From positions 1 through 51,873 of the forward strand of contig SVPU01000011.1 in the NCBI GenBank assembly GCA_015065685.1: a stretch of 51,873 bases of DNA, written 5' to 3'. Made by a program: the position numbers and the translations under genes. This DNA is from Oscillospiraceae bacterium. Its GTDB lineage: Bacteria; Bacillota; Clostridia; Oscillospirales; Acutalibacteraceae. Positions within the stretch are counted from its first letter, which is position 1. Every line of letters begins with the position of its first letter. The notes beneath the pieces are model-generated. The model did no database searches. It was not told where the DNA came from and worked only from the letters and a program-made list of their open reading frames with translations. Shown here piece by piece: positions 1 to 16,245 of the stretch.

Positions 1-147
1 ACACGACGGGTACACAAAAAAGTTTTTCACGCAAAAATCAGAGTGAGATATATGAGATAGACTACCATAAATGATGTATTTAGTACCACTTACCACCAGT
101 GAGAAGATACTCAAAACGGAGTGGGAGTAATATTTATTGTCTTATAT

Positions 148-773: not shown

Positions 774-3700
774 ATGAAGAGAATCTTAAAACATGGCATG
801 GCTTTGCTATTGGCAGTTGTCCTTTGCGTTAGCCTTATGCCAACTGCCCACTTTGCTGCAGATGCCGCTACTGTTGATTATGTTTACAGTGGCGATTATA
901 TCTACAACTGGGGCACCCGCGGTGAAACCGCAACCTTCCTTTCCCCGAATGCAGAGGCATTCTATACAGGCAATAACAAATATGATGATTTGTCTGCTTT
1001 AGCAGGCGGCACAGGCGTTTCTGATGCACCAAGCAGTGCACTTTATTCATCACTTCAGGCTTTGATGGTGAATGCACACGATTATCAGACAAGCTATAAC
1101 GCCACAAAAGACCTTTATCAGTATACCGACTGTCAGAACAGTGGTAAAATCACCAAAGCTATATCATCGTTCTACTCCGGCGTTGCTATCGGTCCTGCTT
1201 GGGGCACTGCTCCTTCTTGGAACCGCGAGCACACCTGGCCCAACAGTAAGGGCTTAGGCGGTATGGATGAAAATGATATTATGATGCTTCGTCCTACTGC
1301 TTCCAGTGAAAACACTTCTCGCGGTAACAAGGCTTACGGTGAGAGCACCGGTTACTATAACCCCAACAGCGCATCTAACGGTGCTTACGACCTTCGCGGC
1401 GACGTTAGCCGTATCTTCCTTTATGTTTATGTTCGTTGGGGCAATGTAAACGGTAACGGCCAATACTCCACTTGGGGCACCAACGGTGTTATGGAAAGCC
1501 TTGACATATTGCTCGAATGGATGGAAGCTGACCCGGTTGATACTTGGGAATTAGGCCGTAACGACTCTGTTCAGGCTATCACAGGCACACGTAATGTTTT
1601 CGTTGACTATCCTGAGCTTGCATTCACACTCTTCGGTGCAGAAATTCCCGAAGATATGGCAACTCCTTCAGGCGAAGCTGCAAATTCCGGTTGTGAGCAT
1701 AACTATGTGGCAGGAACACCCGTAGCTGCTACTTGTACTGCCGATGGCTACACACCTTACACCTGCAGCATTTGCGAAAAGGTTCTTAAGGATGATTTCA
1801 CATCCAAAATCGACCACAACTATGTTGAAGGCACTTGTGATGCTTGTGGCGCTGTTGAGCCCCGCTTGCCCGTAACAGGTGAAACCGTTGCTATCTATGC
1901 TCCTGCTTATGATATGGCATTGTCTGCAGATAAGGTTTCCGCAACATCCTACTATAACAAGGGCGTGGATGTATCCGGCGGCTTTAATGATTTAACTCTG
2001 GCTGAAAAATGGGTTGTTACCGTTAACGAAGACGGCAGCTATTCATTCGTTTCAGGAACAGGCAAAAAACTGGCTTTAGCAGATAGCTACAGTTCTTTGA
2101 ACGATGAAGGCGCTAATGATGATTGGACTGTTACTGCTAAGTCAGGCGCTGACAATATCTATTATGTAAAGAACACTGTTCGCGGCAGCTATCTCGAGTG
2201 GTATGCTTCTATGAACAATTGGAGCACATACGCTACTTCAAGCTTATCTGACTTGTTTGAGCTTAGTTTCCACATCTTTAAGGATTGCGACCACGAATAT
2301 TCATCTGTAGTGTTTGATGCTACTTGTACAGATGATGGTTACACAACCTATACCTGCAAGCATTGCGGTATAAGCTATGATGATAATGTGATCACAGCTG
2401 AAGGCCATAAATATGATGAAGACGGTTTCTGCACTGTTTGTGATGAGGAAAAACCCGAAGAAGTTAAATACACAATTCACTTCCTCGTTCCCGAAGATGT
2501 AGAGGCTGTTGATTCAATTGTTTGCGGTGAAGATGGCACACTTCTTCCCGAAGCAGAAGCTCCCACAGGCTATACATTCCTTGGTTGGTCTAAGGCTGTG
2601 GTTGATAATGAGACCAAAGAGCCTACCTTCTTGAATTCGGGCGATGATTTCGTTCCCACTGCTGACACTGTTCTTTATGCTCTTTATTCTTATGTTGAAA
2701 TGAGCGAAGGTGGCGCTACAACCTCTGGCACTGCAAACATCAGCTTTGCAAGCACTGATAACCGTACTGTATTCACCACATCACAGCAGGTTTGGGTACA
2801 AAACGGAATTACAATTACAAATGATAAGGGTTCTTCTACCAGCAATGTTGCTAACTATTCTAACCCCGCTCGTTTCTATAAGAATTCTAAGCTTACCGTA
2901 GCACACCCCGGCATGACAAAGATTGTATTCAATTGTAACACTGCCAATTATGCTACCGCTTTAAAGAACTCGATAGGAGCTGCTGCTACTGCTAGCTCAA
3001 AGGTTGTTACTGTTGTACTCAGCGCTCCTACTGACAGTTATGTAATTGCAAAGCTTTCCGGCGGACAGGTTCGTATAGATAGTATTGATGTTGAATATGA
3101 AACAACCGGTGGCGGCGCAGCTGAGATTACATATTACACCACAGTTATCGGCGATGCTTGCGCACACGAATCCGCAGAATTTGTTAACGGTAAGGCTGCA
3201 ACCTGTACCGATGGTGGTAACGAGCCTGACCTCTACTGCCCCGATTGTGATGTAACCCTCGTAACAGGCGCTCCCATTGCTGCTAAAGGACACGCTTTAG
3301 CAGTTGACAAGGCCGCAGAAGCAACCTGTACTGTAGCAGGTTGGACCGAGGGTAGCCACTGTAAGCGTTGCGGCGAGGTTTTGGTTGCTCAGATAGAAAT
3401 TCAACCTCTTGGCCACGAAGACAAGGACCGCGACAATTTCTGCGACCGTTGCGATACCAACATTAAGTTAGATGATGGCGACCTCGTAACCTCAAAGGGT
3501 ACACTCACAGGTACACCTAAAATGGGTTATAACATCCCGATTTCATTTGATGAAGTTCCTGCAAATACGGCAATGTACGGTGCTTTAGTATGGCGCGAGG
3601 GCGCAGATGAAGCAACCGCTACAGATGTTGAGTTCGCTGACGGCAACAAAGTAATCGGTATTTCTAATATCGCTATTTACGGAATCAAAAATGTATTTAA

Positions 3701-4388
3701 CATTAAACCTTATATTATAGATGATGAAGGCTATGTGGCTTACGGCGAAGTAGTTACTGCTTCTTACCTTGAGTGGTTGCTTATGTATAAGGATAACACC
3801 GATACCGATAAAGCGGCTGCAGTAGCACAAATCAACAAGATTCTCGATATCTACTATGCCGCTACAGGTGAAGCAGCATATGAAGGTCAAGCTAAACCTC
3901 AGTTAGCAGACGCTGCTGAAGGCACATATGCAGCTAAAACACCTCTTAGCATTGTAGGCGATTCCGAAATTTCTGTTAAGGCTGACAAGCCCGTTCAGGG
4001 AAGTATTGTTAACGGCAAGCTCAGAATAAACCTTGACTACGGCACAAAGACCGGCGACTACGGCGTGCTCGTATATAAAGCAGGAAATGAGTTTAATCCT
4101 CTCGATGTTTCTACCGCAGATGCTAACATAGTGTTTGAAGAAGGTGCAATTCTTTCTGTTGATATCAGCGGAATCGCAGTTGCTAACTATGGCAAGCAAT
4201 ACACCTTTATTCCTTATGTTGTAGACGGCGAAAACCTCGAATTTGGTAACACCATTAAGGTTTCTTACGCTGACTTTATGGCTTATGCTTTAAACAGCAC
4301 TAACGCAAATGCAAAACAGGTGGCAAACGCTTCTTGCGAGCTTTACAAGGCTATCACCGGTGCAGACCTTTGCGAAATTGCTGAATAA
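774..4388 (+). CDS. Large secreted endonuclease I-family protein with Cys-rich repeats and duplicated C-terminal module
   Basis: A 1204-residue protein with a Sec signal peptide (Lys/Arg start, hydrophobic core, cleavage likely near residue 30). Residues about 70-295 are an endonuclease I (EndA/Vvn, His-Me finger) domain: NREHTWPNSKG near 149 holds the catalytic His, followed by a GDVSRIFLYVYVRW segment and RNVFVDYPELA. Several Cys-x2-Cys blocks follow (around 310-370, 500-560, 790-900) that look like small metal-binding or disulfide repeats. A Listeria-Bacteroides-type beta repeat (GYTFLGW) lies near 600. The last 290 or so residues form two related beta-rich halves (YGALVWR in one, YGVLVYK in the other) and match the C-terminus of the protein at 4939. 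Likely an extracellular or surface nuclease; the C-terminal module has no function I recognise. It is followed 33 nt later by a micropeptide gene. Confidence 0.85.
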   Translation: MKRILKHGMALLLAVVLCVSLMPTAHFAADAATVDYVYSGDYIYNWGTRGETATFLSPNAEAFYTGNNKYDDLSALAGGTGVSDAPSSALYSSLQALMVNAHDYQTSYNATKDLYQYTDCQNSGKITKAISSFYSGVAIGPAWGTAPSWNREHTWPNSKGLGGMDENDIMMLRPTASSENTSRGNKAYGESTGYYNPNSASNGAYDLRGDVSRIFLYVYVRWGNVNGNGQYSTWGTNGVMESLDILLEWMEADPVDTWELGRNDSVQAITGTRNVFVDYPELAFTLFGAEIPEDMATPSGEAANSGCEHNYVAGTPVAATCTADGYTPYTCSICEKVLKDDFTSKIDHNYVEGTCDACGAVEPRLPVTGETVAIYAPAYDMALSADKVSATSYYNKGVDVSGGFNDLTLAEKWVVTVNEDGSYSFVSGTGKKLALADSYSSLNDEGANDDWTVTAKSGADNIYYVKNTVRGSYLEWYASMNNWSTYATSSLSDLFELSFHIFKDCDHEYSSVVFDATCTDDGYTTYTCKHCGISYDDNVITAEGHKYDEDGFCTVCDEEKPEEVKYTIHFLVPEDVEAVDSIVCGEDGTLLPEAEAPTGYTFLGWSKAVVDNETKEPTFLNSGDDFVPTADTVLYALYSYVEMSEGGATTSGTANISFASTDNRTVFTTSQQVWVQNGITITNDKGSSTSNVANYSNPARFYKNSKLTVAHPGMTKIVFNCNTANYATALKNSIGAAATASSKVVTVVLSAPTDSYVIAKLSGGQVRIDSIDVEYETTGGGAAEITYYTTVIGDACAHESAEFVNGKAATCTDGGNEPDLYCPDCDVTLVTGAPIAAKGHALAVDKAAEATCTVAGWTEGSHCKRCGEVLVAQIEIQPLGHEDKDRDNFCDRCDTNIKLDDGDLVTSKGTLTGTPKMGYNIPISFDEVPANTAMYGALVWREGADEATATDVEFADGNKVIGISNIAIYGIKNVFNIKPYIIDDEGYVAYGEVVTASYLEWLLMYKDNTDTDKAAAVAQINKILDIYYAATGEAAYEGQAKPQLADAAEGTYAAKTPLSIVGDSEISVKADKPVQGSIVNGKLRINLDYGTKTGDYGVLVYKAGNEFNPLDVSTADANIVFEEGAILSVDISGIAVANYGKQYTFIPYVVDGENLEFGNTIKVSYADFMAYALNSTNANAKQVANASCELYKAITGADLCEIAE

Positions 4389-4421
4389 TTTATCAGATAA
4401 CTTTTAAAGGAGAAAATTGCT

Positions 4422-4538
4422 ATGAAATTTGAATTACCAAAAATTGCAATAGTTAATTTCGAAACATCTGATAATATAGCCGATCTTATGGAAGATGAAA
4501 CTATTGAACCGGGAACCTTTGATTCAACTGTCTTTTAA
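4422..4538 (+). CDS. Micropeptide 1 (38 residues) of the secreted-protein cassette
   Basis: A 38-residue frame, starting MKFELP and ending FDSTVF, preceded by a strong AAAGGAG site and followed by a terminator. It has no Cys, no signal peptide and no membrane segment; the middle is acidic (SDNIADLMEDETIEPG). The peptide after the second secreted protein (6675) has 30 of 38 residues the same, with a nearly equal gap to the upstream stop, so coding is well supported. The layout of a short MKxExP start, a hydrophobic stretch and a D-x-I segment resembles the many unannotated short proteins of gut clostridia. Function unknown; possibilities are a modified-peptide precursor, a signal, or a partner of the secreted protein. 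Confidence 0.8.
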   Translation: MKFELPKIAIVNFETSDNIADLMEDETIEPGTFDSTVF

Positions 4539-4572
4539 TCCGAAGAGGTTCTAACACATATTAAAAATTTTA

Positions 4573-4610
4573 AAAGGCTTGGAGTGGAAACACTCTGAGC
4601 CTTTTTTCTT
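4573..4610 (+). terminator. Terminator after micropeptide 1
   Basis: AAAAGGCTTGGAGTG, a GAAA loop, and CACTCTGAGCCTTTTTT: a near-perfect 13-bp stem with a T-run, closing the first cassette. Confidence 0.9.
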
Positions 4611-4938
4611 TTTGTGAAAAATTCAAAAGCAAACCTTGAAAACCAATAATATAATTAAAGGTGGGCTAAAAACCGTTTTTTAACCATTTATTTTTATAAA
4701 CAGAGCCACTTGGTATAAAAACACAACCCATTTGCTATAGAATAAGCTTTGTTTTTTATCGTATAATTAACTCGTGGTGATATCAGTTTCAAAATTCGTT
4801 ATTTTAGTATCGAAAAAGACTTTACCAAGAGAAATTGCTAAATATTTTAGTTTTGGTAATTAAAATAGGTGGGAATCAAAAACACTTACCCGCTTATTTA
4901 ATTTTATATAATAAATTTAAATAAAGGAGTTATGTTCT
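4611..4938 (+). promoter_or_regulatory. Intergenic region ahead of the second cassette, with a TATAAT box
   Basis: These 328 AT-rich nt hold no gene. A TATAAT box at 4907-4912 is a likely -10 element, but its spaced -35 position (ACTTAC) is poor, suggesting an activator or weak basal expression. The word AGGTGGG occurs twice (near 4661 and 4867), each followed by an A-rich run, which could be part of a repeated regulatory element. An AAAGGAG ribosome binding site precedes the ATG at 4939. Confidence 0.45.
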
Positions 4939-6642
4939 ATGTTTAAGAAAAGATTTTTAGCACTCGCACTTACATTAGCACTCGTAATTACATCCTTTGG
5001 CACATTGGGAATCTTCAGTGTTCCTGCTGCAGCTGCAGAAAACGGCGATTATGCTATCGCATTTAATGATGTTGACCAACTTTATCCTGACGGTTGGAAA
5101 GCATACTTCTCTTCTAATCCACAGGGCGGCGTTCCTTTTACCGAAGTAAAAGAGGATGACCTTGGTACATATTATGAGGATTGGAAGAGTGGAGCAGGCG
5201 GCTATTGTATAACCCGTTCACAAAAACCCAACTTATACAACAGCTCAAACAACTGGAATAAATCAACTGTTTTCACCAATATGGGCGCACTCACCTATAC
5301 TCCACAAAAGTATAAGTATTTTGATTTGACTATTGAATACAAATATTCCAGTTCAGGAACTCCGTGGCCGCACGTTGTATTCAATCAGCAAAACACCACT
5401 CCCGAAATGTTCTATAGAACCGATAACGTTACCAATCCCACATATGGCGAAGACCCGATATCAGTATCTCCTAACTTTGGAGGTGCAATAAGAGTTTGGG
5501 GTAAAAAAGTTAGCGGTACAAAGACTATTTCTAAAAATATGGATTCTGACAGCTCACCTCAGTGGCACAAGATGCGTGTTACTGTGAAATCCGGCAGTCT
5601 TTATGCTGCGGTTTATGATAAAGATGGAAATCTCGCATTAGAGTACACATTGCCTCTCGATGCAAGCTATAAGGGTGGTTATATCACTCTTATGCAGAAC
5701 GGTGTTACTCACTTTAGAAATATCTCAATAAAAGAACTTGATTTCACCTCTAAGGGTGAATTAACGGGTTCGCCCAATATGCTATACAACATTGGCGTTA
5801 AATTTAACCATACTCCTGCAAATGCGCAGACCTACGGTGCATTAGTATGGCGCAAGGACGCAGATGAAACAACAGCTACAAATGTTGTTTTTGAAGGCGG
5901 TAATTATGCAGTTGGCATTTCTGATATCTCTATCTACGGAATTAAAAACGAATTCAATGTTAAGCCCTACGTGATTGATAATAAATCAAACACATACTAT
6001 GGCGATGTATTCACCGCCTCTTACCTTGAATGGTTACTTATGCACAAGGATAACACCGATGCCGACAAAGCTGAAGCAGTAGCACAGATCAACAAGATTC
6101 TTGATATCTACTACAAGGCTACAGGCGAAGCTGCTTACGAAGGTCAGGTTGCTCCTGAGTTTGAAGCACTCGAAGGTACCTTTGCGGCTGTTACACCTAT
6201 GAGTGTTGAAGGTGATTCAGAAATCACAGTTAAGGCAGCTAAACCTGTTCAGGGCAGTATCGTTAACGGCAAGCTCAGAGTAAACTTTGATTACGGTACA
6301 AAGACAGGTACCTTCGGCGTATTGGTTTACAAATCAGGTAACGCTTATAACCCTGCAGATGTTTCAAATGCCGATGCTGACATCGTATTCGCAAACGGTG
6401 GAATTTTGTCTGTTGATATCAGCGGTACTTCCCTTGTGAATTACGCTGAGCAGTACACCTTCATTCCTTATGTTGCAAATGGTGAAGATGTTGAATACGG
6501 TAACGTAATCAAGGTTTCATATGCTGACTTTATGGCTTATGCGCTCAACAGTAATAATGCAGTTGCAAAACAAGTGGCTACCGCTTCATGTGAGCTTTAC
6601 GCTTCTTTATTAGATGCACAACTTTGCAAAGCTGCTCAATAA
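4939..6642 (+). CDS. Secreted beta-sandwich protein sharing the duplicated C-terminal module
   Basis: A 567-residue protein with a clear signal peptide (MFKKRF start, hydrophobic core, AAAAE cleavage region near residue 34). Residues about 40-255 look like a concanavalin/LamG-type beta sandwich (Trp-rich strands, WHKMRVTVKSG, GGYITLMQNG), usually a carbohydrate-binding or glycosidase-associated fold. Residues about 268-567 match the C-terminus of the 1204-residue neighbour, including the words EWLLM, INKILDIYY, GSIVNGKLR and SYADFMAYALNS. The two proteins thus have different N-terminal effector domains on the same tail. No cell-wall anchor motif is visible, so the tail may itself do the anchoring or recognition. 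A micropeptide gene starts 32 nt after the stop. Confidence 0.8.
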   Translation: MFKKRFLALALTLALVITSFGTLGIFSVPAAAAENGDYAIAFNDVDQLYPDGWKAYFSSNPQGGVPFTEVKEDDLGTYYEDWKSGAGGYCITRSQKPNLYNSSNNWNKSTVFTNMGALTYTPQKYKYFDLTIEYKYSSSGTPWPHVVFNQQNTTPEMFYRTDNVTNPTYGEDPISVSPNFGGAIRVWGKKVSGTKTISKNMDSDSSPQWHKMRVTVKSGSLYAAVYDKDGNLALEYTLPLDASYKGGYITLMQNGVTHFRNISIKELDFTSKGELTGSPNMLYNIGVKFNHTPANAQTYGALVWRKDADETTATNVVFEGGNYAVGISDISIYGIKNEFNVKPYVIDNKSNTYYGDVFTASYLEWLLMHKDNTDADKAEAVAQINKILDIYYKATGEAAYEGQVAPEFEALEGTFAAVTPMSVEGDSEITVKAAKPVQGSIVNGKLRVNFDYGTKTGTFGVLVYKSGNAYNPADVSNADADIVFANGGILSVDISGTSLVNYAEQYTFIPYVANGEDVEYGNVIKVSYADFMAYALNSNNAVAKQVATASCELYASLLDAQLCKAAQ

Positions 6643-6674
6643 TTAATCTAATTAGAATTTAAGGAGAAAATATT

Positions 6675-6791
6675 ATGAAATTTGAATTACCTTTAATTAA
6701 AATAGTTAATTTTGAATTGTCTGATAATATAGCAGCTCTTAAGGAAGATATAACTATCGAACCGGGAATCTTTGATTCAACTATTTTCTAA
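6675..6791 (+). CDS. Micropeptide 2 (38 residues) of the secreted-protein cassette
   Basis: The second copy of the 38-residue peptide, beginning MKFELP and ending FDSTIF, with an AAGGAG ribosome binding site and a terminator just after. It differs from copy 1 at residues 7, 9, 15, 21, 23, 26, 32 and 37 only. Invariant blocks are IVNFE, SDNIA, ED, TIEPG and FDST. Several nucleotide differences between the copies are silent, as expected for a translated and selected peptide. It has no export signal. Cotranscription with the secreted protein upstream is likely because no terminator lies between them. Confidence 0.8.
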   Translation: MKFELPLIKIVNFELSDNIAALKEDITIEPGIFDSTIF

Positions 6792-6802
6792 TTAAAAACT
6801 GC

Positions 6803-6839
6803 AAAAAGACTTGAAGGGATTTCCCTTCAAGTCTTTTTT
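6803..6839 (+). terminator. Terminator after micropeptide 2
   Basis: AAAAAGACTTGAAGGG, loop ATTT, CCCTTCAAGTCTTTTTT: a perfect stem of 13 bp or more with a T-run, closing the second cassette. Confidence 0.92.
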
Positions 6840-8647: not shown

Positions 8648-8869
8648 TTAATACCTTTGTTCCTCCAAAGTTAACCGTGTGGTTTTTAATTTATATCTAT
8701 CACGAAACTCGGCGTATTTACTGAGTAATTCCTCCTCGGTACCCACAAATCCGCATTTAACACAGTGATATTTGCCATCCTCATACAAGTCAACAGGAAC
8801 ATCTATATAGGTATTAAAACACAACGGACATTTGTATATCACTCCTGTGTTTTGCTTAATCGCAGCCAT
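8648..8869 (-). CDS. Small zinc-ribbon protein
   Basis: A 73-residue protein with two CxxC pairs (YKCPLCFN near 14 and YHCVKCGF near 36), typical of a single zinc ribbon, followed by a charged helix rich in Glu, Lys and Arg. A very strong AAGGAGG site precedes the ATG. The first 31 nt overlap the end of the upstream 577-residue gene, so the two are probably translationally coupled. No family beyond zinc ribbon can be assigned; an RNA/DNA-binding or regulatory role is possible. Confidence 0.7.
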   Translation of the reverse strand: MAAIKQNTGVIYKCPLCFNTYIDVPVDLYEDGKYHCVKCGFVGTEEELLSKYAEFRDRYKLKTTRLTLEEQRY

Positions 8870-10572
8870 GTTTCAACCTCCTTAGTGTTTTTGCTTATAT
8901 TATAATTTACCTTTAAAGTGAAGAACGGGCTAAATAGGTTGCCTTCCCTCACGCTTAATTCTTCGGCGTTGGTTTTAGGTATCAACGCAACCCTTGTGGT
9001 AATTTCGGGTATTTCTGCCCATACGGTTTTTGCGCCCTGCTTTTTAAATTCGATATTACGATAGGTATAATCCATCACCTTTTCGCCATCGCAATAGAGC
9101 GTTACATCCTTCATATCTTCGGCATATTCGGTAAAGCCATAGGTTGCTTTAACATATTCCTGAATCTTAAAATCGGCATCATCACTCGTTTCAAGAATCC
9201 GACGCGTTATGCGAATATCTCCGCCGTTTTCAAAATCATAAACCGTTTGTAATTTTGCCGTGAAGCCATCAGAAAACTCAACCACAACAGGCTTTAATAC
9301 AAGCTGACAATTATTATCTGTACGGCTTATAGACTCTACAGATGTGTTATAAGCACACATATCGAGACTTTCATTCCCGTGTGTCATAATCAGCGTGGTG
9401 CGGGCACCATCAACCGAATGTGTTTTATATCCCGTACGGTATTGCGACTGTATGACATATGGATATGTATTATAATGATATCTGCCGTTCTTGGCATCGG
9501 GGCCGGTAACCGCAGCATACTCGCCCGCGTATGCACGTAAATCACCGATAGAGCCACCTTGGAAGGTATCAATAAGAACTCGGTAGCTCGGGTCAAACAC
9601 CCAATAGTATTGCTTACCTGAGCCCATAAGTATATCCTTCGCAAAACCTACAGTTGCTTTGCCAATCGGCACTTTGTTTTTATATTCCGATGCAAATTCG
9701 CTAAAGGTAACAACCTCTACCTCGCCTTTATCGCGGAGCTCTGCGATATACTCCAAGGTCTCAATGTATAGCTTTTGTGTAATCTCATCGGGATCAATAA
9801 TATTGAAATTGCGGCTCAACCAACCGGGAGACACATGCATTTGATAGTATGACATACCGTCATTAAAATCCTTTTGCATACGGTATTGGTCGCATAAATT
9901 AAAATCGTAATCGTGGCTAAAGCCTTCGTTTGCAAGACCGCGCTGTGCGTTTGCGGGATGACTTGCAAAAAAATCGTTGCGGTTTTCATACCCCAAAACC
10001 AAATCGCGACTAAGATGCGGAACCGCTACCACGCCTGCCCAATCATTTTCGTTTCTTGCGGGTCTGATTGAATGTGTTTTAGAAGGATACCACGGTCCCC
10101 AAGACATACCCTCAGAAAATAGATACCACGAATTATTGCAGCCGTGGAATACCTTTACACCCTCTTCAAAGCAACCGGCAACACAAGCCTCTACCTCGGG
10201 GCAATATTCCTTTACAACTTCAATGAGGTCTGCATCCATAACATAGTTACCCACCGATTTTGGAGCATAACCAAACGCTTCAATAAATGCATCAATCGAA
10301 TTTTTAACCACACGCTTTTTATCTTCTTTACGAATTAGCCATACCTGACCTCCGCCCGCCTTACCGTCAGAGGTGAGCCATACCGCAATCTCATCGCCGT
10401 ATGTATCGCGGTCATGCTTGCACTTTTCAATCATTTGCGGGTCTTTTAAAAAATCTAACCCTAAGAATATGGTTGATTTAAAGCCAAAATCGTGGCCGGC
10501 TTTTCTCTGCAGTTCATACATCCGCTCCTTAACCTCGCCTCTGTGCGGACGCAAAAACAAATTAAAATACAT
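8839..10572 (-). CDS. Polysaccharide deacetylase-like/glycosidase-like large protein of unknown specificity
   Basis: A 577-residue protein with no signal peptide. The N-terminal half (RPHRGEV, FKSTIFLGLDFL, DEIAVWLT) has the look of a TIM-like barrel related to polysaccharide deacetylases, and the C-terminal half is beta-rich, like carbohydrate-active enzyme accessory domains. Motifs such as SEGMSWGPWYPSKTHS and HVSPGWLSRN suggest a conserved active-site face. AAAGG lies 8 nt before the ATG. Downstream are a zinc ribbon and a sugar isomerase; upstream is a broken CE15 esterase, so plant polysaccharide processing is a reasonable inference. Exact activity is unknown. Confidence 0.55.
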   Translation of the reverse strand: MYFNLFLRPHRGEVKERMYELQRKAGHDFGFKSTIFLGLDFLKDPQMIEKCKHDRDTYGDEIAVWLTSDGKAGGGQVWLIRKEDKKRVVKNSIDAFIEAFGYAPKSVGNYVMDADLIEVVKEYCPEVEACVAGCFEEGVKVFHGCNNSWYLFSEGMSWGPWYPSKTHSIRPARNENDWAGVVAVPHLSRDLVLGYENRNDFFASHPANAQRGLANEGFSHDYDFNLCDQYRMQKDFNDGMSYYQMHVSPGWLSRNFNIIDPDEITQKLYIETLEYIAELRDKGEVEVVTFSEFASEYKNKVPIGKATVGFAKDILMGSGKQYYWVFDPSYRVLIDTFQGGSIGDLRAYAGEYAAVTGPDAKNGRYHYNTYPYVIQSQYRTGYKTHSVDGARTTLIMTHGNESLDMCAYNTSVESISRTDNNCQLVLKPVVVEFSDGFTAKLQTVYDFENGGDIRITRRILETSDDADFKIQEYVKATYGFTEYAEDMKDVTLYCDGEKVMDYTYRNIEFKKQGAKTVWAEIPEITTRVALIPKTNAEELSVREGNLFSPFFTLKVNYNISKNTKEVETWLRLSKTQE

Positions 10573-13818: not shown

Positions 13819-13938
13819 TAATATTATATATTTTAAAGAAAAATTAGTCAGTTTAAACAAAATATTTTTCTCTAACCGTATTTAGTGGTAAAAATCACTT
13901 ATTTTGTGCTATTGATATAAAATTAACACAATATATTG

Positions 13939-13967
13939 TTGACAAACGTCGATTTATGCAGTAGAAT
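13939..13967 (+). promoter_or_regulatory. Promoter of pflB-pflA
   Basis: TTGACA, 17 nt, TAGAAT, 46 nt before the ATG. Upstream are two candidate regulator sites: the inverted repeat AGTG-GTAAAAAT-CACT near 13881, and TTGTG and CACAA words 18 nt apart near 13904-13931 that resemble half-sites of redox-type (Rex-like) regulators. The promoter is clear; the operator reading is tentative. Confidence 0.75.
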
Positions 13968-14013
13968 AATCTTGCTCGCCTTTTTGGGGGCAATTACCTT
14001 TAAGGAGAAGAAA

Positions 14014-16245
14014 ATGGAACACAAGAATTGGAACGGCTTTATCGGCGGACAATGGCAAAACGAAATCAATGTTCGCGATTTTATACAGAAAAACTATAGT
14101 TCTTTCGAGGGCGACCACACCTTTTTAGCGTCTGCGACTGCTCGCACAAATGCACTTATGAAAAAGGTGAATGGTCTTTTTGCGCTTGAAAGACAATATG
14201 GCGGCGTTCTTGATGTTGATACAGCAACCGTTTCTTCTCTCACAAGCTATTCACCCGGTTACATTGATAAAAAGAATGAAATTATCGTCGGTCTTCAAAC
14301 AAACCGTCCGCTAAAGCGCGGCGTTAATCCCTTTGGCGGCATTAGAATGGCACGTCAGGCATGTGAAGCTTACGGATATAAGCTAAGCACTAAAATTGAA
14401 GAAGAATTCCGTTTCAGAACAACCCATAATGACGGTGTTTTCAGAGCATATACCGAAGAAATGCGTTTGGCTCGCAGATGCCATGTTATAACAGGTCTTC
14501 CCGATGCTTACGGCAGAGGAAGAATTATCGGCGATTACCGCCGAATTGCGCTTTACGGTATTGACCGACTTATTGAAGAGAAGAAAAAGGATAAAGCAAA
14601 CCTTGAAAACGGCAATTTCAACACAGAACAAATCCGTTTGGGTGAAGAACTCTTCCGCCAGATAAAATTCCTTGGTTTAATGAAGGAAATGGCTGAAATG
14701 TACGGTTTTGATATAAGCCAGCCCGCAAGTAACGCAAGGGAGGCTATTCAGTGGACCTATTTCGGTTATCTTGCCGCTATTAAAGAGCAAAATGGTGCGG
14801 CAATGTCGCTTGGAAGAGTGAGCACCTTCTTTGATATTTATATTGAGCGTGATATTAAGGCGGGAATTCTTGATGAAACCTCTGCCCAAGAGCTTATTGA
14901 TGATTTTGTTATAAAACTTCGAATGGCACGCCATTTAAGAACTCCCGAATATAACGAGCTATTCGGCGGCGACCCTATGTGGATAACCGAAGCGGTTGGC
15001 GGTATGGGTGAGGACGGAAGAACCTTGGTTACAAAGAGCAGCTTCCGTATTCTCAACACGCTTTACACTTTGGGCTCTTCTCCTGAGCCAAATTTAACGG
15101 TGCTTTGGTCTGACCGCTTGCCCGAGGGCTTTAAGAAATACTGTGCAAAGGTTTCTTGTGATACAGACTCAATTCAATATGAAAATGATGATATTATGCG
15201 CCCCATTTATGGCGACGACTATGCAATTGCTTGCTGTGTTTCGGCAATGAAGGTTGGCAAGCAGATGCAATTCTTCGGTGCGCGTTGCAACTTTGCAAAG
15301 CTTTTACTTATCGCTCTTAATGGTGGTTATGATACAACGAGCGGCATTAATATAGGCCCTCAGATGCCCGTTTGGAAGAGCGACAAGCTCGATTATGACG
15401 GAGTTATGAGAAGGCTTGATGATTATATCGAGTGGATGGCAAAGCTTTATGTGAACACTATGAATGTTATCCACTATATGCACGATAAATATGCCTATGA
15501 AAAATCTCAGATGGCGCTTCACGATACCGCGGTCGAGCGCTTTATGGCATTCGGAATTGCAGGTCTTTCGGTCGTAGCCGATTCTTTAAGCGCCATCAAG
15601 CACGCTAAGGTTACTGCGATTAAGGATGAAAACGGCTATATAGTTGATTTCAAAACCGAAGGCGATTTTCCGAAATTCGGCAACGATGATGACCGTGTTG
15701 ATATGATAGCTAAGGAAATAACCCATAGAATGATAACCGAGCTCAGAAAAACGCCCACCTACCGTGATGCAATTCACACACTTTCGGTGCTGACTATCAC
15801 TTCAAACGTTATGTATGGCAAGAACACGGGTGCCACACCTGATGGCAGAGGCGCAGGAGATGCATTTGCCCCCGGTGCTAACCCCATGCACAACCGCGAG
15901 GAAAACGGTGCCTTAGCATCGCTTAATTCGGTTGCAAAATTAAGCTATGATGACTGCCGCGACGGTATTTCGAACACATTCTCTATAACTCCGGATGCAC
16001 TCGGCAAAACCGATGAAGACCGAATAAACAACCTCGTTAGCATTTTAGATGGTTACTTTGCAAAAAAGGCGCACCACATAAATATTAATGTGCTTAATCG
16101 CGAGACACTTGTCGCCGCTTATGAAAACCCCGAAGCTTATCCCAATCTCACAATTCGTGTTTCGGGTTATGCGGTTAATTTCCACAAGCTTTCGCGTGAG
16201 CAACAACGCGAGGTTATAAGCAGAACCTTCCACGAGGCGATGTGA
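14014..16245 (+). CDS. pflB: Pyruvate formate-lyase (formate C-acetyltransferase)
   Basis: A 743-residue glycyl radical enzyme that cleaves pyruvate with CoA to acetyl-CoA and formate under anaerobic conditions. The adjacent catalytic cysteines are C407-C408 in [11 protein letters not shown], and the radical Gly is G718 in the C-terminal RVSGYAVNF motif. Length matches the family (about 740-760). The ATG at 14014 follows AAGGAGAAGAAA. The activase gene starts directly after its stop, forming the expected operon. This is the main fermentative pyruvate route seen in the window. Confidence 0.97.

Follow-up and report, generated by a model that had tools for sequence, protein, structure and literature searches.

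Phosphorylated lasso peptides of the paeninodin type are associated with RiPP recognition element (RRE; RiPP, ribosomally synthesised and post-translationally modified peptide), HprK-like kinase and NTP_transf_5 families, and their leaders carry an aromatic-x-x-P stretch. In the sorting systems such as LPXTG/sortase, dockerin and PEP-CTERM, a common tail is carried by unrelated secreted modules. Closest to the system discussed here are the Linear Polyphosphorylated Peptides (LPP; LppA/K/B/S/D/N), a RiPP family for which Popov et al. 2026 (PMC13381572) describe a precursor, an HprK-like kinase, an RRE, a SipW-like peptidase, an MsbA-like exporter and a nucleoside triphosphate (NTP) transferase. 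According to the main text of that report, the core is polyphosphorylated at Ser3 by a kinase that rejected Thr and Tyr as acceptors, the leader is cut after T-1, the clusters come from Bacilli and often lie near capsule loci, precursors were sought within 5 kb around the cluster, and the biological role of the peptides is unknown. The present study concerns a stretch of 51,873 nucleotides from an Oscillospiraceae bacterium (assembly GCA_015065685.1, contig SVPU01000011.1; hereafter the window), which is contig C3 of a genome of 1.48 Mb in 24 contigs and carries two adjacent cassettes, each encoding a large secreted-type protein and a 38-residue peptide. The pairing of a secreted protein with such a peptide is real and general, no earlier description of it having been found in the literature searched, and the peptides appear to be a variant of the just-described LPP family and are termed LPP-like here.

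The two units had been recognised as being of the same build in a preliminary description made from the sequence alone, and the coordinates of the open reading frames (ORFs), the gaps, the peptides and the hairpins confirm this. The features of the two units are as follows, the signal-peptide-like starts of both proteins being judged by eye.

774..4388, + strand: secreted-type protein 1, 1204 residues, with signal peptide (by eye), endonuclease I domain, middle segments and tail
3486..4385, + strand: tail of protein 1, 300 residues, two repeats
4422..4538, + strand: putative LPP-like precursor peptide 1, 38 residues; predicted leader 1-20, predicted core 21-38
4572..4605, + strand: terminator-like hairpin 3' of peptide 1 (hairpin scan; stem of 15 pairs)
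4939..6642, + strand: secreted-type protein 2, 567 residues, with signal peptide (by eye), weak 3-keto-disaccharide-hydrolase-like domain and tail
5743..6639, + strand: tail of protein 2, 299 residues
6675..6791, + strand: putative LPP-like precursor peptide 2, 38 residues; predicted leader 1-20, predicted core 21-38
6803..6838, + strand (symmetric, listed on the - strand): terminator-like hairpin 3' of peptide 2 (stem of 16 pairs)

The units are arranged head to tail in the order protein ORF, gap (33 nucleotides in unit 1 and 32 in unit 2), peptide ORF and hairpin, with AAGGAG preceding the start codon of each peptide ORF. The hairpin scan gave nine sites against a mean of 5.2 in shuffled sequences; the cassette hairpins have the longest stems, and in neither unit did the scan place one between the tail gene and the peptide. 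The two tails are 70% identical and the two peptides 79%, neither peptide having a match in Pfam or NCBIfam. The unlike N-terminal effectors of the preliminary description were endonuclease I, which is borne out (PF04231, E 3.7e-19, residues 101-281 of protein 1), and a beta sandwich, which is plausible rather than established because the 3keto-disac_hyd match of protein 2 is below the cut-off (22.6 bits vs 26.8). Nonsynonymous (dN) and synonymous (dS) substitution values are 0.15 and 0.38 for the window peptide pair and 0.05 and 0.46 for a pair from contigs C7 (C7a) and C23. With eight copies of the peptide in the genome and dN below dS in the peptide genes, the build of the cassettes is beyond chance.

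The tail was matched at 17 places in this genome, which are read as 11 genes on C1, C2, C3 (two), C7 (two), C10 (two), C12, C23 and C24, with a tail fragment at the edge of C23 left out of the count. A peptide follows seven of the 11 (C1, both C3, both C7, C23 and C24), and seven of the eight peptides of the MKFE type lie behind a tail gene. The suggestion of a modular system, in which N-terminal domains vary while tail and peptide are conserved, was thus sound. All eight share MKFE.P, F13 and I19-A20 and have a Ser at a fixed distance of four residues from the C-terminus. When 3004 small ORFs in 13 stretches of this genome were ranked with a profile of 27 peptides from foreign genomes, all nine peptides of this genome came out on top, the window peptides at E 8.6e-5 and 3.1e-3 and the worst at 0.045, followed by the next ORF at 1.6. 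A search of the genome for the ending DST[IV]F hit five of the peptides and, in addition, one site to which no ORF corresponds and which lies in what we take to be RNase P RNA. The sole MKFE-type peptide not behind a tail gene (G000:C22:33032-33142) is preceded by a gene for a 49-residue single-helix protein, and beyond it, on the opposite strand, a sigma-factor-like gene was recognised by eye.

The domains joined to the tail bear on immunity as a possible function, also raised in the preliminary description, with the peptide serving as immunity factor or antitoxin against a toxic N-terminal domain. One window partner is indeed an endonuclease, but peptides of the same type lie behind a BspA-type leucine-rich-repeat protein (C1), a CBM_4_9 carbohydrate-binding protein (C23) and unassigned proteins, the peptide C-termini vary little with the effector, and the partners look secreted. 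With partners this varied, the immunity role is disfavoured and we regard it as very improbable. Tail proteins without a peptide include a GLUG protein (C12, where the peptide searches of this genome found none) and a solute-binding protein (G000:C2:41579-43783, SBP_bac_8), in which the tail stands on the N-terminal side right after the signal peptide. A further segment follows the tail in both C7 proteins; the tail is therefore not always C-terminal. The Pfam scan, which covered nine of the 11 tail proteins (leaving out C7b and C24), gave no match to the C-terminal sorting signals of the LPXTG/sortase, dockerin or PEP-CTERM kinds, with which the tail shares its occurrence on unrelated secreted modules. 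The tail consists of two internal repeats (hhalign E 2.8e-12). A structure model of the full tail was too poor for use (predicted local distance difference test score, pLDDT, 53), and that of the half-tail (pLDDT 62.6, predicted template modelling score 0.61) gave weak, mostly fibronectin-III-like matches (best E 0.011), from which a beta sandwich plus a helical hairpin is suggested and no more is claimed.

An RRE was suspected from the leader-like start of the peptides, and PF05402 (PqqD) has four matches in this genome. One of these belongs to a kinase-RRE-peptidase operon on C7, situated between two tail-plus-peptide units.

C7, 42071-42775: HprK-like kinase, before the RRE
C7, 42839-43048: RRE match (PF05402, 47.9 bits, cut-off 23.4)
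C7, 43050-43508: SipW-like peptidase, behind the RRE

On C5, a 758-residue protein with a signal-peptide-like start, a peptide beginning MKTYQKP, a kinase, an RRE (PF05402, 61.7 bits, cut-off 23.4), a lipoprotein, a peptidase and NTP_transf_5 (3.8e-35) form one row, the peptide being of the Y type and placed before the kinase. Among named proteins ScmC comes closest to the C7 kinase (E 1.4e-7, 31.1 bits vs a cut-off of 125), and the ScmC and HprK_rel_A matches of both kinases are all below cut-off. In the 14 aligned kinases the P-loop residues G-K-S-T-H and the second of the two Asp in DD are invariant. Similarly, the C7 peptidase matches sigpep_I_arch (2.5e-6) and SipW (7.2e-5) under the cut-offs, and its Ser32, His71 and Asp87 (also Asp42) are kept in 45 of 45 sequences (compare S29/H68/D93 of LppS).

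We consider it moderately probable that the window peptides are LPP-like RiPP precursors whose enzymes act in trans, and that the mature exported peptide works with its own secreted protein outside the cell. Residues 1-20 (MKFE[LM]P....NIA) would be the leader, its F-x-x-P stretch being bound by the PqqD-type RRE; the SipW-like signal peptidase would cleave after Ala20, and the HprK-like kinase would phosphorylate a Ser, the best candidate being the residue located four positions from the C-terminal end of the acidic 17-19-residue core in all eight peptides. The enzymes may be supplied in trans by the C7 operon from its place between two other tail-plus-peptide units. With each precursor encoded right behind one secreted protein, the mature exported peptide would act together with that protein extracellularly, in the likeliest form by binding the tail region and helping to hold the protein at the cell surface, present it there or switch it. 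Directly observed are the gene anatomy, its recurrence, its co-occurrence with the enzymes and one example in a single operon; the cleavage site, the phosphorylated residue, the supply in trans, the export and each part of the partner function are deduced. Among the roles suggested in the preliminary description, maturation comes closest to this reading, in which the component that matures is the peptide.

The co-occurrence of peptides and enzymes was examined in 150 genomes of the family, this one included, using a profile of 30 peptides (three of them rows from this genome) at E<=0.01, which found 116 places in 44 genomes. PqqD matches occur in 91 genomes, namely 44/44 with a peptide and 47/106 without (nominal p 1.0e-12; 1.7e-14 with the 125 best PqqD matches), and kinase matches (E<=1e-10) in 76, namely 44/44 and 32/106 (nominal p 1.4e-17); counting strong kinase matches only, the figures are 41/44, three being weak, and 20/106. 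T or A stands at P+14 in 49 of 69 family peptides and Ser at P+15..18 in 64, counts that are biased as the peptides were picked by profile; both fit the LPP scheme, since LPP leaders are cut after T-1 and the LPP core is phosphorylated at Ser3 (PMC13381572, main text). Ala20 takes position P+14 in the window group, but the Ser lies near the C-terminal end, and a different target residue is therefore likely.

A search of a genome-contig collection with the kinase alignment gave at least 587 loci, of which 80 were kept, 79 with a complete kinase. Peptide profiles, the second-round one including first-round hits, were applied to every small ORF in these loci regardless of position and gave 21 peptide-like hits (E<1), 16 of them within 1 kb upstream of the kinase on the same strand. 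In one locus from a sheep-colon metagenome-assembled genome (L139), a window-type tail (E 3.3e-21), a peptide with FSMP...NIAS, kinase, RRE and peptidase stand in one row; another (L141) has two MKFEFP peptides ahead of the kinase. The C7 RRE groups with those of L139 and L141 in a single clade (support 100/97), and these loci have FxxP and [NA][IV]A leaders; Phe instead of Tyr is also present in the leaders of L143, L164, L182 and L188. These observations have to be set against the explanation that the peptide is an unmodified small cytosolic protein, such as a secretion or folding helper of the preceding protein, that resembles leaders. The peptide has no signal peptide, its modification is so far deduced, and the kinase-RRE-peptidase operons of this genome are on contigs other than that of the window cassettes, all of which would suit such a helper. 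Against it stand the co-occurrence of kinase and RRE in all 44 peptide-bearing genomes, the placement before the kinase, the L139 gene row and the single RRE clade, and we hold it to be unlikely.

Nineteen kinase loci, nearly all picked for a found peptide and some identical with loci of the family genomes (for example L164 and L113), were mapped; in 16 of the 18 peptide-bearing ones the peptide lies closely behind a long ORF on the same strand. Two kinase loci (L194, L216) come from metagenome-assembled genomes labelled planctomycete, which may reflect transfer or a binning error. In another (L173:4592-5929), neighbouring secreted-type proteins have a common C-terminal ending, DEGWSGIY/DDGWTGIY.

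The generality of the pairing was assessed on 74 of the 107 peptide places outside this genome, mostly the best-ranked. A peptide was counted as partnered when it lay within 100 nucleotides behind a protein of at least 250 residues that had a signal-peptide-like start or whose gene was open at the 5' end; this held for 41/74 peptides and for 64/551 control genes, taken from stretches of this genome and from PqqD neighbourhoods (nominal p 1.9e-16). The proportion was 30/52 away from PqqD and 11/22 near it, and 32 of 33 complete partner genes pass the lax signal-peptide rule. Partners of 600 residues or more precede 33/74 peptides and 11/551 control genes.

The tail is lineage-specific, and the wider rule is that of a secreted protein plus a peptide. 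The window tail profile matched this genome alone among the 150 at E<=1e-6 (0/149 of the others), and the secreted proteins that precede related peptides have tails without measurable relation to that of the window; the idea of the tail as a general or universal partner domain is accordingly rejected. A scan of the genome-contig collection with the tail found no relative and was insensitive, because a tail homologue was later found in L139 from the same collection. The only other genome of the same genus in the sample (G059) encodes a 507-residue protein whose start resembles a signal peptide, with a peptide gene shortly after it and the pair divergent from RRE and peptidase; no window-type tail was found there. 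Two other genomes have repeated tails of their own. G078 has eight, two of which run off a contig end; of the remaining six, five are followed by a peptide at 12-13 nucleotides. In G065 five of seven tails are followed by a peptide (by coordinates); five of the seven match the query only at 1e-6 to 3e-4, and several resemble each other only weakly.

Such differences between tails favour the explanation that the precursor is LPP-like and its pairing regulatory only, protein and peptide being made together from one mRNA while the mature peptide, a signal or an antimicrobial with its site of action elsewhere, does not come into contact with the protein. The window tail has no measurable relation to tails of the G078/G065 type (profile comparison E 0.064, probability 0.9%), so no common docking domain is evident; 33/74 peptides have no partner as defined above, and the C22 peptide follows the 49-residue gene. 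This explanation is less readily reconciled with the joint repetition of tail and peptide in three genomes with different tails (this one, G078 and G065), or with the partner being specifically a very long secreted protein, and we regard it as possible but doubtful.

The C-termini of peptide and partner were compared in two sets of loci, both containing L115, the second with 60 pairs. In the first set L115 scored 79 and L159 58 against a null maximum of 30; in the second L115 again scored 79 and L292 scored 33, at the edge of the null (maximum 34), and no such mimicry was seen in the other loci. The secreted protein of L115 (7186-8402, - strand) ends GWSDWWTPEY and the following peptide GWSDWWTPEF, a lipoprotein and peptide of L159 (5678-7140) both end VPGGEW, and the borderline case of L292 has the common ending IELPII. 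The near-identical endings in L115 and L159 suggest that both partners carry the same recognition tag. From the genetic pairing, the joint amplification of tail and peptide and the mimicry in two loci, we infer a partner role for the peptide. A bolder version, put forward tentatively, is that of a RiPP pathway that equips large secreted proteins instead of yielding a free natural product: each would bring its own precursor, a few shared enzymes would phosphorylate and trim it, and the mature peptide, bound or linked either to the protein itself or to a surface lipoprotein that ends in the same C-terminal sequence, would serve as anchor, cap or switch.

Several observations weigh against the favoured reading of LPP-like precursors that are matured in trans and act on their secreted partners. 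In this genome, four of the 11 tail genes (both C10, C2 and C12) lack a peptide and one MKFE-type peptide (C22) lacks a tail gene; the fetched C7 and C5 stretches contain no ORF for an MsbA-like exporter, and that of C7 no NTP transferase. The window peptides have neither the Tyr of YxxP nor a Ser just after the expected cut. Just 14/79 kinase loci have a peptide within 1 kb upstream, none being seen in 65, and PqqD (52), peptidase (41), exporter (24) and NTP transferase (17) are near the kinase in only part of the 79. Among the 33 peptides without a partner, five have less than 300 nucleotides of upstream sequence, and the signal-peptide rule is lax enough to be passed by 64/136 ORFs of 250 or more residues in this genome. 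The p values overstate the associations because paralogues within one genome are not independent, and for some peptides neighbouring enzymes may be lost from view at contig breaks. The contact between peptide and protein is itself deduced from the gene pairing.

Elsewhere in the window, a pyruvate-formate-lyase-like glycyl radical enzyme is encoded at 13936-16245 (PF02901, PF01228) with a 238-residue ORF directly behind, and a 577-residue protein without any Pfam match at 1e-4 at 8839-10572 on the - strand.

The pairing with large secreted proteins provides a testable clue to the role of the LPP peptides and, if the peptide acts on its partner protein, would represent a new way for these bacteria to handle surface and secreted proteins. 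A precursor search within 5 kb around the enzymes, as described in the main text of PMC13381572, would miss most of the peptides found here, since 83/116 are more than 10 kb from any RRE (PqqD) match or on another contig, the other 33 being within 10 kb. A term search of that main text gave no occurrence of 'clostridi', 'surface' or 'secreted protein', and among the matches listed for LPP and paeninodin terms the name LPP was found in PMC13381572 alone. No account of a secreted protein paired with a precursor peptide was found by title or start of abstract, in a search that left the subscription literature largely uncovered, and the leader-motif strings had no occurrence in the papers searched as text.

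Comparison with the known systems places the peptides closest to LPP. A lasso peptide identity is rejected, as the B2 protein (PF13471, Transglut_core3) has no match in this genome at E<=0.001; the paeninodin type differs in this respect and in that no constant ring acceptor is seen by eye in the cores. The SynChlorMet cassette (ScmC/ScmD) and the NCBIfam HprK-related kinase A resemble the present loci in the ScmC-like C7 kinase and its PqqD partner, but all matches are far below the curated cut-offs. The statement in the preliminary description that no described family has this pairing is outdated in so far as the LPP RiPPs, as given in the main text of PMC13381572, have a similar set of enzymes and a similar precursor logic. 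Common to both are the HprK-like kinase, the discrete RRE of PqqD fold, the SpI/SipW-like peptidase with Ser, His and Asp, NTP_transf_5 (in the C5 row), short precursors with an aromatic-x-x-P start and the absence of a lasso B2 match. The LPP leader in that text reads YxxPxVLxHQxIxFETxxS or Px9Fx[T/A], whereas the window peptides have FxxP, Px6F and A at P+14; they keep the aromatic-xx-P and the T/A, but wording and spacing differ, and because of this difference in the leader motif the peptides are named LPP-like and not filed as LPP members. The window group has [IV]A at P+13/14 and no Ser at the start of the core. LPP is described from Bacilli, often near capsule loci, whereas this genome is, going by the relatives of its kinase, probably clostridial and has no exporter found beside the enzymes. 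Finally, unlike the LPP precursors of the published main text, most precursors here lie away from the enzymes, and many of them directly behind a secreted protein.

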